Shown: in pieces, positions 32,802-56,374 of the stretch
Position numbering within the stretch: the first letter of the stretch is position 1
Layout of the letters: each line of letters opens with the position of its first letter
From: Ruegeria sp. 6PALISEP08
GTDB lineage: Bacteria > Pseudomonadota > Alphaproteobacteria > Rhodobacterales > Rhodobacteraceae
Direction of reading: 5' to 3'
NCBI RefSeq assembly: GCF_001238295.1
Contig: NZ_LGXZ01000001.1
Coordinates: forward strand, 310,001-374,000
Length of the DNA: 64,000 bases
Translations under genes and position numbers: made by a program
Notes under the pieces: generated by a model
What the model saw: the letters and a program-made list of their open reading frames with translations, nothing else
What the model was told of the DNA's origin: nothing
Database searches by the model: none

Positions 32802-34178
32802 ATGAAGGTCATCATATGCGGCGCAGGTCAGGTTGGCTGGCAGATTGCGCGGCACCTTTCGGGCGAACTGAATGACGTAACGGTCGTGGACAACAATCCC
32901 GACCTCGTGCGCCGGGCGACGGAAACGCTGGATGTGCAGGGCATTGCCGGGTTTGCAAGCTATCCTGACGTACTGGAACGGGCAGGGGCCCGTGACGCCG
33001 ACATGATAATCGCTGCGACCCATTCCGACGAGGTGAACATGGTCACCTGTCAGATGGCGCATTCGGTTTTCTCGATCCAACGCAAGATCGCGCGTCTGCG
33101 GTCGAAATCCTATCTGGAAGCCATCCATTCGGATCTTTACCGCCGCGATCATTTGCCCATCGATGTGGTGATCAGCCCCGAACGCGAAGTGGCTGCCGCT
33201 GCGATGCGCCGCCTGTCTGCCCCATCGGCCTTTGACACCGAGATTTTCATGGATGGCAAGGCGCAACTGCTGGGTATCAGGGTGGAAGAGGACTGCCCGA
33301 TCGTGAACACGCCGCTCCGGCAACTGACCGATCTGTTTTCCACGCTCAGTTCGATTGTGGTTGGGGTTCGGCGCGAAGGTACGCTGTTTGCGCCCGAGTC
33401 CGAAGATCAGCTGTTCGTGGGTGACGAATGTTACGTCTTTACTAATGTGAAAGACGTGAACCGCACCATGGAGGTGTTCGGCAAAGCTCAGAAGCGTCAG
33501 GATCGTGTTGTGATTGTTGGCGGTGGCAATGTTGGTTTGGAAGTGGCCAGAACGCTGGAAGAGCGTGAAGGTCGCGTGCGTGCCAAGATCATCGAACGCG
33601 ACCGTCAATGCGCCGAGATCGCCGCCGAAGCGCTGGAGCGGACAATCGTTCTGCATGGGGATGGGTTGGATTCCGGCTTGCTGAGCGAGGCGGGTATCGA
33701 CCGGGCCGATGCGATGCTGGCCGTCACGGATGACGACCGCACCAACATGCTGGCCGCCGTGCGTGCCAAGGCCGAAGGCTGTGCGCTGGCGATTGCGCTG
33801 ATCAACGATCCCAGCATGGTTGCCCTGATGGGGCCGTTGGGCATTGACGCTTATATTAACCCGCGTGCCACCACCGTCAGCTCGATCCTACGCCATATCC
33901 GGCATGGGCGTGTGCGACAGGTTTATTCCATCGGCGATGCAGAGGCCGAAGTGATCGAGGCCGAGGTTCTGTCGACTTCTCCGATGGCGGGGCAAAAGCT
34001 GCGGGATATCGATTTCCCCGAAGGTGTGCTGGTGGGTGCTGTGCGCAAAGGGGACGAGGTTCTGCGCCCGACAGGCAGTCTGAGGATCGAAGAAAAAGAT
34101 GTGGTTGCCATCTTTGCCATGGCCAAGGACGTGCCCGAGGTTGAACGCCTGATGCAGGTTTCAATCGATTTCTTCTGA
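32802..34178 (+). CDS. trkA: Trk potassium transport regulatory protein TrkA
   Basis: Cytoplasmic gating ring subunit of the Trk potassium importer, 458 residues, made of two copies of an RCK unit. Each has a nucleotide-binding motif: ICGAGQVGWQIAR at the N-terminus and VIVGGGNVGLEVAR near 235. Each is followed by a TrkA_C ligand domain. The ATG at 32802 begins MKVIICGAGQ. TrkH follows with a one-base overlap. The ntrYX-trkAH-hfq order is conserved in alphaproteobacteria. Confidence 0.95.
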   Translation: MKVIICGAGQVGWQIARHLSGELNDVTVVDNNPDLVRRATETLDVQGIAGFASYPDVLERAGARDADMIIAATHSDEVNMVTCQMAHSVFSIQRKIARLRSKSYLEAIHSDLYRRDHLPIDVVISPEREVAAAAMRRLSAPSAFDTEIFMDGKAQLLGIRVEEDCPIVNTPLRQLTDLFSTLSSIVVGVRREGTLFAPESEDQLFVGDECYVFTNVKDVNRTMEVFGKAQKRQDRVVIVGGGNVGLEVARTLEEREGRVRAKIIERDRQCAEIAAEALERTIVLHGDGLDSGLLSEAGIDRADAMLAVTDDDRTNMLAAVRAKAEGCALAIALINDPSMVALMGPLGIDAYINPRATTVSSILRHIRHGRVRQVYSIGDAEAEVIEAEVLSTSPMAGQKLRDIDFPEGVLVGAVRKGDEVLRPTGSLRIEEKDVVAIFAMAKDVPEVERLMQVSIDFF

Positions 34179-35847: not shown

Positions 35848-36087
35848 ATGGCTTCGGACAGACAGAATCTTCAGGATGCCTTCCTGAACAATGTACGGAA
35901 AGCTAAGGTTCCGGTAACGATCTTCCTGATCAATGGCGTAAAACTGCAAGGTGTGATCACCTGGTTCGACAATTTCTGCGTATTGTTGCGCCGCGACGGA
36001 CAGTCGCAGTTGGTATACAAACACGCGATTTCAACCATCATGCCATCACAGCCGATCAACCTGTATGAGGGCGAAGACGCCTCTTGA
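35848..36087 (+). CDS. hfq: RNA chaperone Hfq
   Basis: Sm-like hexameric protein that joins small RNAs to mRNAs, 79 residues. Sm1 ([20 protein letters not shown] region) and Sm2 with the diagnostic YKHAIST motif are both complete. The C-terminal tail is short, as in other alphaproteobacteria. It is followed immediately by hflX, the usual partner. The gap of about 130 bp upstream should hold its promoter. Confidence 0.97.
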
Positions 36088-53469: not shown

Positions 53470-55299
53470 TTAATTGGCCTCGTACCACCAGACCTCGGGC
53501 ATGTATTGAGGGCCGTCGCCGTAGATGGGTAAAGTGTCGGGAAACTTGAGCTCGCGGGCATGTGCAATGCGCCCGACATCAAAGCTCCAGATCGGGATGA
53601 CATAGCGGCCTGCGGTCAGGACGCGGTCCAGTGCGCGGGTGGCCGTGGTGAAGTCTTCGCGCGTTTCCGACGCCAGCATGGCATCGATCATCGCATCAAC
53701 AGCGGGCGAGGACACGCCCATCAGGTTGCGCGTGCCTGGTGTGTCAACAAACTCACTGCCCCAGTAGAATCTCTGTTCATTGCCCGGAGACAACGACAGG
53801 GCGCGGCGGAATGGTGTCATGTCGAAATCAAGTTCGTTCATGCGCGAGGTGTATTGCGCGTCATCGACCTTTTCGACCACCAGTTCAATGCCAAGCCGTT
53901 TCAGCGCGCCAGCGTAAATCTCGGCGATCGTGGTGACATCCTGCACAACATTCAGACTGCCCTGGCTGATCACCATTTCAATCCTAAACGGGCGGCCTTC
54001 AGTGTTTTTCAACACGCCATCCTGAACGGTCCATCCCGCATCTTCCAGAAGCTTGACCGCCTTGCGAATGTTGCGTCTGTTCCGTTCCGAGCCGTCGCCT
54101 TGCGGCAACTCGTACCCCTCCAGCGTGCCGGGTGTCAGGTCTGCCTCAAATGGCTCTAGCAAAGCACGCACCGGTTCGCTTGCCGGTCCCGGTTGCATCG
54201 CCAGATCAGAGCCAGAGAAGTATGAAGAAATACGCGGCTGTGCGCCGCCTGTGACCGTGTCGTTGATAAACTCGAAATTGAAGGCAAGGGTCAGTGCCTC
54301 GCGCACCCGCCAGTCGTCCAGGGGTGGTTTGCGGGTATTCATCACAAAACCGGTCATCCCGGACGGTTTGCCATGGGGGATCTCAGTCTTGATCACGTCC
54401 CCGCGCTGAACGGCGGGGAAGTTGTATTGCTTGTTCCATTTGTCGGCGTTGAATTCGCGCACCGCCGAAAGCTCACCGGCTTTGAATGCCTCAAACGCGA
54501 CAGAGCCATCCCCGTAGAACTCGATCCGCAAGTCATCAAGATTCATGGTGCCGCGGCGAAACGGGACATCCTTACCCCAATAATCCGGGTTGCGACGCAG
54601 GTTCACATAGCGGCCTGCCTCGTAACTATCGATCACATAAGGGCCGGTGCCGATTGGAATATCCTGCAACTTTGCGTTTGCAAAATCCTTCCCTTCCCAT
54701 TGCGCCTTTTGCAGGATCGGGCGCATCCCGGCCAGCAAAGCCAGTTCGCGATCCGGTTCGTTGAACGAGATCCGAACCGAGCGTGGGCCAGTCTGTTCAA
54801 TGCTGTCGATTTTGCCCCACAGCCCGCGATAGCGCAGATGACCTTCGGTCCCGAGGGTTTCATAGGACCAGATCACATCCCCGACCGTAACGGGGCTGCC
54901 GTCGGAAAAACGCGCCTCTTCGCGCAGGGTGAATTCGACCCAGGACCGGTCTGGTGCCGCCTCAACTGATTCGGCTAACAGCCCGTAAAGCGTAAAAGGT
55001 TCGTCCCAGGACCGCCCCATCAGGCTTTCATGGGTCCAGAACGGCAATTGCCACGGAGAGGTGCCTTTTTGCAAAAACGGGTTCAAGCTGTTATAGCCGC
55101 CGGTATTTCCGAACACGGCTTTGCCGCCTTGGGGCGCATCCGGGTTGGCATAAGGGAGGGACACAAAATCCGGTGGTAGGGCCGGGTCCCCATACATAGC
55201 TATGCCATGAGACGATTCTGCATGGGCGACAGACATAAGAAAAACGCTGGCGATTCCCGCCGCAAATGGTCGAAACGGTCGGAGAAAATCCGGGCTCAT
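53470..55299 (-). CDS. Oligopeptide-type ABC transporter substrate-binding protein (YejA/MppA-like)
   Basis: Periplasmic binding protein of family 5, 609 residues with an N-terminal signal peptide ending near AHAESS. The mature protein shows the family pattern (YANPDAPQGGKAVFG, SLNPFLQKGTSP, WVEFTLREEARFSDGSPV) typical of YejA-like peptide or microcin C binders. No permease or ATPase gene is next to it in the window, so it either works with a transporter elsewhere or is an orphan. Confidence 0.9.
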   Translation of the reverse strand: MSPDFLRPFRPFAAGIASVFLMSVAHAESSHGIAMYGDPALPPDFVSLPYANPDAPQGGKAVFGNTGGYNSLNPFLQKGTSPWQLPFWTHESLMGRSWDEPFTLYGLLAESVEAAPDRSWVEFTLREEARFSDGSPVTVGDVIWSYETLGTEGHLRYRGLWGKIDSIEQTGPRSVRISFNEPDRELALLAGMRPILQKAQWEGKDFANAKLQDIPIGTGPYVIDSYEAGRYVNLRRNPDYWGKDVPFRRGTMNLDDLRIEFYGDGSVAFEAFKAGELSAVREFNADKWNKQYNFPAVQRGDVIKTEIPHGKPSGMTGFVMNTRKPPLDDWRVREALTLAFNFEFINDTVTGGAQPRISSYFSGSDLAMQPGPASEPVRALLEPFEADLTPGTLEGYELPQGDGSERNRRNIRKAVKLLEDAGWTVQDGVLKNTEGRPFRIEMVISQGSLNVVQDVTTIAEIYAGALKRLGIELVVEKVDDAQYTSRMNELDFDMTPFRRALSLSPGNEQRFYWGSEFVDTPGTRNLMGVSSPAVDAMIDAMLASETREDFTTATRALDRVLTAGRYVIPIWSFDVGRIAHARELKFPDTLPIYGDGPQYMPEVWWYEAN

Positions 55300-55378
55300 T
55301 TTGGAAACAATCCTGCTCTGGCCTTATTTTGTTGGAGATCACCGTAGTGATGATTTTTCTTATTATCAAACTTTTAGC

Positions 55379-55407
55379 TTGGACGAAGGCACAGAATTGC
55401 TTATAAA
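55379..55407 (+). promoter_or_regulatory. Sigma-70-like promoter of a candidate small RNA
   Basis: TTGGAC (55379-55384), a 17-bp spacer and TATAAA (55402-55407). It faces right, away from the peptide-binding protein gene, and predicts a transcript start near 55413. Confidence 0.6.
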
Positions 55408-55412
55408 GGTCT

Positions 55413-55490
55413 TACTGCTCGATAGGTTTCTTGCCTGTATGAAACCTGCCTCAATAACTTAACGCCCGCTTCGTGCGGGCGTTTTTTTTT
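55413..55490 (+). ncRNA. Candidate Hfq-type small RNA (or terminated leader of bdhA)
   Basis: About 78 nt from the predicted start. Hairpin 1: AGGTTTC (55424-55430) / GAAACCT (55441-55447), 7 perfect pairs, 10-nt loop. Then an unpaired A/U-rich linker (CAATAACTTA), then an intrinsic terminator ACGCCCGC (55462-55469) / GCGGGCGT (55475-55482) with a run of nine T. No plus-strand gene ends upstream for almost 2.8 kb, so the terminator has no other use. The layout matches Hfq-binding small RNAs. A leader attenuator for bdhA, 110 bp downstream, is the alternative; I see no clear antiterminator. Confidence 0.6.
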
Positions 55491-55600
55491 GGCAGATCGG
55501 GATGTCTCAGCCTGGGATTTCAATTCCATATGTTTCCCCGTTTTCTTTGCAGGTGCAGCATGGCATGGTGCGCCAGGACATCGCATCAGGGAGATCGGTC

Positions 55601-56374
55601 ATGAGCATTTCCGGCAAAACGGCAATCATTACAGGATCAAATTCAGGTATCGGTCTGGGGGTCGCGCGCGAGTTGGCCAAGGCAGGGGCCAACGTGGTTC
55701 TGAACTCATTCACCGACCGGGATGAAGATCATGCGCTGGCCGCAGAGATTTCAAAAGAGACCGGAACCAATGCGCGCTATATCAAGGCGGACATGTCCAA
55801 AGGCGATGAATGCCGTGCGCTGATCGAACAGGCGGGGGCCTGTGATATTCTGGTGAATAACGCGGGTATTCAACATGTCTCTCCGATCGATCAGTTCCCG
55901 ACCGAGAAATGGGACGCGATTATTGCGATCAATATGAACTCGGCCTTTCACACCACAGCCGCAGCGCTGCCGATGATGCGCAAGGCGGGGTGGGGCCGGA
56001 TCGTCAATATTGCTTCGGCCCACGGTCTGACGGCTTCGCCATACAAAGCGGCTTATGTCGCGGCCAAACACGGTGTGGTCGGGATGACCAAGACCGTCGC
56101 GCTGGAAACCGCGCAGGAGCCGATCACCTGCAACGCAATCTGTCCGGGTTATGTTCTGACGCCTCTGGTCGAGGCGCAGATCCCTGATACGATGAAAGAA
56201 TACAACATGAGCCGCGAAGATGTTGTGAAGAATATTCTGCTGGAGCGGCAGCCCTCGAAGGAATTTGCCACTGTCGAGCAGTTGGGCGGCACGGCCATCT
56301 TTCTGTGCTCGGACGCGGCGGCGCAGATTACCGGGACGACGATTTCGGTCGATGGTGGCTGGACCGCGCTTTGA
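55601..56374 (+). CDS. bdhA: 3-hydroxybutyrate dehydrogenase
   Basis: NAD-dependent SDR that oxidises D-3-hydroxybutyrate to acetoacetate in polyhydroxybutyrate and ketone-body metabolism, 257 residues. TGSNSGIG coenzyme motif at about 11-18, NNAG motif, and catalytic YKAAYVAAK. The C-terminal QITGTTISVDGGWTA is typical of the family. AGGGAGA precedes the ATG at 55601; upstream codons in frame are not SDR-like. An interspersed repeat follows its stop. Confidence 0.92.
   Translation: MSISGKTAIITGSNSGIGLGVARELAKAGANVVLNSFTDRDEDHALAAEISKETGTNARYIKADMSKGDECRALIEQAGACDILVNNAGIQHVSPIDQFPTEKWDAIIAINMNSAFHTTAAALPMMRKAGWGRIVNIASAHGLTASPYKAAYVAAKHGVVGMTKTVALETAQEPITCNAICPGYVLTPLVEAQIPDTMKEYNMSREDVVKNILLERQPSKEFATVEQLGGTAIFLCSDAAAQITGTTISVDGGWTAL

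Follow-up and report, generated by a model that had tools for sequence, protein, structure and literature searches.

The closest described systems are the leader RNA UpsM of Rhodobacter sphaeroides and the small RNA (sRNA) StsR. According to the parts of PMC5089854 that concern it, UpsM is 206 nucleotides (nt) long, has its 5' end 268 nt before mraZ and makes up about 60% of the Hfq-bound sRNA; RNase E cuts it, which yields a 130-nt 3' piece, and this cleavage needs Hfq and very likely an RNA from an RpoHI/RpoHII promoter. The same parts report that R2-R4 of UpsM are conserved in the family and R1 hardly. StsR is presented in the relevant extracts of PMC8307010, PMC8625941 and PMC11354728 as a 72-nt orphan RNA with an RpoHI/RpoHII promoter, described as Hfq-associated, which attaches to both UpsM and the dcw leader, exposing the RNase E site. 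Here we analyze an element of about 75 nt in the alphaproteobacterium Ruegeria sp. 6PALISEP08, found in a stretch of 64,000 nt (contig NZ_LGXZ01000001.1, positions 310,001 to 374,000); this whole stretch is called the window, and coordinates refer to it unless another genome is named. We consider it probable that the element is a trans-acting sRNA of the Rhodobacteraceae (the family is taken in the GTDB sense), which is made from an RpoH-type promoter, base-pairs with two sites in the dcw leader, probably opens this leader to RNase E and lowers the amount of dcw mRNA.

Sequence comparison strongly supports an sRNA gene with its own promoter at 55414..55488 on the plus strand, where a covariance model gave a match of 106.5 bits (G000:C1:365414-365488). 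The start at 55414 follows from the position of the -10 element and from the point where invariance begins. A preceding interpretation of the bare letters, the sequence-only reading, had proposed a 7-bp hairpin with a 10-nt loop and a G/C terminator ending in nine T, and both are present. Hairpin 1 (AGGTTTC/GAAACCT, 55424..55447, 55424-55430 pairing with 55441-55447) folds as predicted there, and an extra U-G pair is possible beyond the 7 bp. The intrinsic terminator with its U9 tract (55461..55490, plus strand) was listed by a terminator scan; we count nine pairs in its stem, seven of which are G-C, and the nine T occupy 55482-55490. RNA folding predicts two separate hairpins joined by a linker; the energy is -26.3 kcal/mol, compared with a mean of -13.98 for shuffled sequences (z = -4.42), and none of 200 shuffles was as low. 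Binding of the putative transcript by Hfq would be compatible with the U9 tail and with the presence of hfq in the genome, which lies in the window as claimed (35848-36087).

The predicted promoter consists of a -35 element CTTGGAC (55378..55384), a 17-nt spacer and a -10 element TATAAA (55402..55407), all on the plus strand. The sequence-only reading had named TTGGAC (55379-55384) and TATAAA at this spacing, which is correct; its plain sigma-70 interpretation is conceivable, and the family-wide pattern fits an RpoH-type promoter better. A TTG within -40..-31 occurs in all 174 exact-core loci and in 17 of 18 low-scoring loci, CTTG in 157 and 14, and AT within -13..-10 in 169 and 15 of them, respectively; these are counts without a shuffled control, and L236, whose 5' part differs, was excluded. 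In the low-scoring loci, the remainder of the -10 element departs from TATAAA, for example as GGCTATGTT or CCTCATCTT. The logos of R. sphaeroides RpoHI and RpoHII, as shown in the pertinent part of PMC3441632, emphasise the same TTG and an A at -12. A generic sigma-70 scanner did not list a promoter at 55379-55407; TATAAA is without the final T required by this program. Directly before the -35 element lies a conserved box, TCAAACTTTTAG (55366..55377, plus strand), which is kept at 79-97% per position in the 174 exact-core loci and at 39-78% in the 18 low-scoring ones; the 17-mer CAAACTTTTAGCTTGGA, which covers most of this box, occurs exactly once in the genome.

By BLAST, 242 of the 248 family genomes and 241 of 247 genera (mostly one genome per genus) have the element, and this conservation excludes a chance origin. 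It is present in 37 of 37 examined genomes of the genus, the own one included, and in none of 24 genomes from other families; within its own genome, the 112-nt stretch has a single match. The search with a covariance model that had been suggested earlier was carried out with model R1, built from an alignment (A1) of 40 copies picked by their exact core, and found the element in all 244 genomes of an order sample, which are all listed as Rhodobacteraceae and overlap with the BLAST sample. In a class sample of 289 genomes, searched with stricter filters, which lose weak matches, no convincing match was found outside the family: 20 genomes reached E ≤ 0.01, of which four are Rhodobacteraceae, and the 16 others, with at most 32.5 bits, were treated as chance. 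No phage matched the element; among plasmids, four Paracoccus records did. The six BLAST-negative genomes, none of which was rescued by R1, are all drafts (71-92% complete, 70-530 contigs), and four of them still carry a form of the partner site in the mraZ leader described below (17 nt in G226 and G296, 13 nt in G093, one mismatch in G193); for these reasons some of the misses are probably assembly gaps. G207 and G215, the remaining two, gave no MraZ match. Second matches to the element or the model were listed in G143, G233, G453 and some other genomes; the one in G143 (L239) is weak (29.5 bits) and does not contain the core.

Most copies are 74-77 nt long including the U-runs. Across the 40 aligned copies the first 40 nt do not vary at all, which overstates the constancy because these copies were selected via the exact core. 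Of 19 low-scoring genomes with the sRNA, 12 have the exact core and four have one with at most three changes; it is more diverged in G162, G287 and G089. The seven pairs of helix 1 show zero variation in the alignment, so that this helix is without covariation evidence. The terminator helix has changes on both sides at six of eight pairs in the 40 sequences. For the structure as a whole, 98.0% of the cells pair, a value that none of 500 shuffles reached; the covariation score was reached by 0, the number of both-side changes by 6 and that of further pair types by 91 of 500 shuffles. Conservation throughout the family, the covarying terminator and the conserved promoter strongly support the earlier proposal of a separate sRNA that has a promoter and a terminator of its own. 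At two loci, L074 and L144, the sRNA core is kept and the terminator differs.

As the 5' half is frozen, we searched for a partner of this half. The main pairing segment TGCCTGTATGAAACCTG (55432..55448, plus strand) is a perfect 17-nt complement of the site CAGGTTTCATACAGGCA in the mraZ/dcw leader, and the 5' segment CTGCTCG (55415..55421, plus strand) is complementary to CGAGCAG in the same leader. Within the window's genome, exact copies of the 16-mer site are limited to the mraZ leader and, in antisense, the sRNA gene. The duplex energy there is -43.3 kcal/mol, compared with -33.0 ± 3.2 for the null, and none of 35 control windows reached it. Thirty of the best-scoring sRNA genomes were searched, and all except G303 had an MraZ match. 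In each of the resulting 29 genomes, the longest run of perfect complementarity in the 400 nt before mraZ measures 11-19 nt, and at least 15 nt in 26 of them; for 519 control windows the maximum was 11 and the mean 6.6 nt. The sequence GCGAGCAG lies 131-175 nt before mraZ in 28 of the 29 genomes. In G104, where a contig end truncates the locus, the site itself served to place the leader, which leaves 28 independent genomes. By duplex energy, the leader beats every control window in 27 of 29 genomes, and cofolding beats all 40 shuffles in the window genome, G198 and G260. Complementarity of this kind indicates that the two RNAs can pair; the direction of action is not given by it. The dcw/mraZ leader is probably the target of the predicted sRNA, and this target had escaped the sequence-only reading.

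Several observations weigh against this assignment. The 29 genomes tested are among the best-scoring ones; control duplexes reach the leader in G130 (5 of 35) and in G104 (21 of 26, with a misplaced start), and G073 cofolds weakly, its value being reached by 3 of 40 shuffles. In the 16 genomes with the most diverged sRNAs, eight have a run of at least 11 nt (in G182 the locus is cut), and the other eight reach just 7-10 nt; the 395 controls had a maximum of 12 and a mean of 6.5 nt, and those of the contig-end loci G151 and G182 may include the site itself. For R. sphaeroides, G151, G348 and the genomes without the sRNA, the run test used the consensus sRNA. The energy beats all own controls in nine of the 16 diverged genomes, narrowly in G119 and G143, and does not do so in G064, G161, G287, G089, G077, G254 and G210. 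Strong duplexes without a long run are formed in G162 and G068. In G162, in favour of the assignment, both partners have changed and the pairing is kept, with UAGGA facing UCCUA, as judged by eye. No convincing leader site was seen in G089 and G254, that of G119 is marginal, and G077 lies on a cut contig. In G089 (L282) and G119 (L285) the sRNA core is altered and no matching leader site accompanies it; these may be lineages in which the pairing has been lost. Conserved predicted base-pairing with a separately encoded target is thus seen in 29 of 29 selected genomes, and the picture is mixed in the 16 diverged ones.

The complementarity might also be read in the opposite sense, with UpsM as a sponge that titrates the sRNA, whose real targets would be other mRNAs. 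The share of UpsM among the Hfq-bound sRNA of R. sphaeroides would suit such a role, and so would the fact that CCTGCCTC of the sRNA is invariant in the 40 aligned copies and only partly used in the leader duplex. A search of the genome for other targets argues in the other direction: at up to two mismatches there were five matches, including the two of the exact pair, as compared with one for the control, and no second site was equal to that in the leader, short seeds not having been searched genome-wide. No gene start among the 96 in the window matches the sRNA over more than 10 nt, and this best match (GCAGGTTTCA, at 34178, -24 of the start) is probably within chance. We consider a sponge rather unlikely.

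Returning to the leader as target, the published lengths place the RNase E cut of R. sphaeroides UpsM between CCCGC and UUUCAUCC, that is, at nt 76/77. This position falls between the two pairing sites, which occupy nt 54-70 and nt 106-113. In this species the pairing is less convincing. The leader has one mismatch, which leaves 12 nt as the longest run, and the cofolding value of -11.3 is reached by 26 of 60 sRNA shuffles (16 of 60 for the control SorX). Moreover, 19 of about 2,213 other RpoH-like sites of R. sphaeroides have an 11-15-nt match to UpsM, without a T-run. A further point on this side is that R1, which by our fold holds the main site, is called hardly conserved in the pertinent part of PMC5089854; the main site inside it is nonetheless well kept in the genomes compared.

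The properties listed above raise the question of whether the element is the R. sphaeroides sRNA StsR, in which case its function would already be known. We judged genome G111 to be R. sphaeroides 2.4.1: its PufL is 100% identical to a query sequence that agrees with 1aig_L, and a SorX-like sequence was seen by eye at the published coordinate. The copy of the element in this genome starts at C4:1,444,071 on the minus strand and adjoins a solute-binding gene and an apparent bdhA (by eye, out of frame). It has about the size of StsR, an RpoH-like promoter and a predicted pairing with UpsM. In 53 stretches of 20 kb, which make up one third of chromosome 1, it is the only one among about 2,214 listed RpoH-like sites that combines a run of at least six T with a UpsM match of at least 9 nt. 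In general terms, the element resembles StsR in size, as an orphan gene, in its probable RpoH-type promoter, the TTG and AT of the logos being kept in its loci, and in a pairing close to the RNase E site of the UpsM/dcw leader, which is predicted from sequence and weak in R. sphaeroides itself.

The interpolated chromosomal position of StsR does not fit this identity. StsR is the former RSs0827, for which interpolation between RSs0682 (UpsM, ~694.6 kb) and RSs1624 (1,724,505), at ~1.09 kb per number, gives a position near 853 kb; the copy at 1,444,071 would correspond to about number 1368. There may be an sRNA RSs1368; RSs1366-1371 were not found in the papers searched, and a text search of papers for the sRNA core sequence gave no match. 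Close to the interpolated position, at ~858.1 kb, lies another terminator-ended RNA (C4 ~858056-858140, locus L320, U8 terminator), which carries TTCACTGTCCC, a sequence complementary to UpsM nt 13-23, and which cofolds with UpsM at -17.5, a value reached by 2 of 60 shuffles. Pairing of this RNA at nt 13-23 would, by prediction, disrupt the stem in which the cut is hidden; a different UpsM site came out best in a plain duplex search. The scans showed no good RpoH promoter for the 858-kb RNA, and it lies, by eye, just behind a reading frame; for both reasons it is no more than a candidate for StsR. The element, likewise, is not equated with StsR outright, the position of 1,444,071 being at odds with that interpolated for RSs0827. 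The matches of 11 nt in the 858-kb RNA and of 12 nt in the element are each untelling when taken alone, because 19 other sites match 11-15 nt and the genome is GC-rich. The gene rpoE, a published target of StsR, was not found by motif and tblastn in the R. sphaeroides stretches that were fetched.

The differences from StsR are thus the position expected from its RSs number and the mismatch in the R. sphaeroides pairing, both on a comparison by description only. Orthology to StsR appears to us quite possible, if somewhat short of probable. The element may be StsR proper or another RNA with the same action. For the latter case we tentatively propose an sRNA other than StsR and conserved more broadly, whose two-site pairing with the dcw leader around the RNase E cut in all Rhodobacteraceae would represent an ancestral, family-wide link between the RpoH stress response and cell division; StsR would have joined it later, or as a lineage-specific element, in R. 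sphaeroides, a species in which the older pairing grew weaker.

Other described RNAs come less close. Rfam gave no match to the element at gathering thresholds. MmgR/suhB (RF00519) is an alphaproteobacterial family that shares with the element the two hairpins and the U-tract, and the neighbouring bdhA might suggest that the element belongs to it and controls polyhydroxybutyrate stores. There is indeed a full-length match below threshold (23.7 bits, E = 0.0022), to which terminator and U-tract contribute most and in which the consensus CCUCCCU fits poorly; since the gathering score is 41, we rejected the membership and regard it as hardly credible. BjrC1505 (RF02356; 26.9 bits, gathering score 50) was rejected likewise, as were SorX (RF02784; 18 bits, 46.6) and SorY (RF02651; 17 bits, 111), two stress sRNAs of R. 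sphaeroides from the same bacterial family whose scores are far below the thresholds. For Paracoccus denitrificans, the pertinent part of PMC5107571 describes "intergenic 134", an RNA of 84 nt confirmed by reverse transcription PCR, which is conserved in many Rhodobacteraceae, has the same context in R. sphaeroides and has reported matches that include Streptomyces and Chloroflexus. Compared by this description only, it is like the element intergenic, of similar size and conserved in the family, and it may be an orthologue; unlike it, the element is without convincing matches outside the family. The sections considered of an sRNA survey of R. pomeroyi (PMC4809877) do not name the element.

The gene neighbourhood bears on the alternative offered by the sequence-only reading, namely that the element is a terminated leader, or attenuator, of bdhA. 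Divergent to the sRNA lies a gene for an ABC transporter solute-binding protein (SBP_bac_5, 53470..55299, minus strand; Pfam PF00496, 230.6 bits). As claimed, no plus-strand gene lies upstream that could use the terminator; the plus-strand open reading frames listed there lie opposite this gene. Downstream, 3-hydroxybutyrate dehydrogenase BdhA is encoded at 55601..56374 on the plus strand (TIGR01963, 369.2 bits, cut-off 307.05), for which 55601 fits better as start than 55502. The element lies on the same strand, its end 112 bp ahead of the BdhA start, and among the 118 loci listed as matches to the exact 30-nt core, a BdhA-like protein lies nearby in at least 91 (some loci are cut) and a relative of the solute-binding protein in 107. 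The linkage is not constant, however: in L067, L074 and L090, according to the list of open reading frames, the core is kept, other genes lie downstream, and both bdhA and the solute-binding gene are missing at the locus. In addition, a strong terminator ends the unit, the predicted fold consists of two separate hairpins (alternative anti-terminator folds were not searched), and the invariant portion is the 5' half, which matches far better elsewhere, in the mraZ leader. A role as bdhA leader is unlikely, and we assign very little weight to attenuation. Between the terminator and bdhA, TTGCAGGTGCAGCA (55548-55561) bears some resemblance to a PhaR operator; it could be bdhA's own control.

The sRNA acting on the dcw leader would, in our model, work as follows. 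Sequence data establish the gene, its constancy in the family and a complementarity beyond that of controls; transcription, regulation by RpoH, an assisting role of Hfq, cleavage and the direction of the change are parts of the model. From the putative RpoH-type promoter, which would probably be active under stress or in stationary phase, an RNA of ~75 nt would be made, and its invariant 5' half would pair with the mraZ/dcw leader, nt 19-35 facing CAGGTTTCATACAGGCA and nt 2-8 facing CGAGCAG. Because the two sites bracket the cut in R. sphaeroides UpsM, the pairing probably opens the enclosed stretch of the leader to RNase E. UpsM and dcw mRNA would be lowered, and division would be slowed under stress.

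For an sRNA, it is extreme that 40 nt are nearly unchanged over some 240 genera. The complementarity to a conserved stretch of the leader would explain why neither of the two changes. If the RNA is StsR, the mechanism of R. sphaeroides extends to the whole family; if it is not, a second regulator of the dcw leader has been overlooked. The proposed link between stress and division can be tested in any roseobacter, Paracoccus or Rhodobacter.
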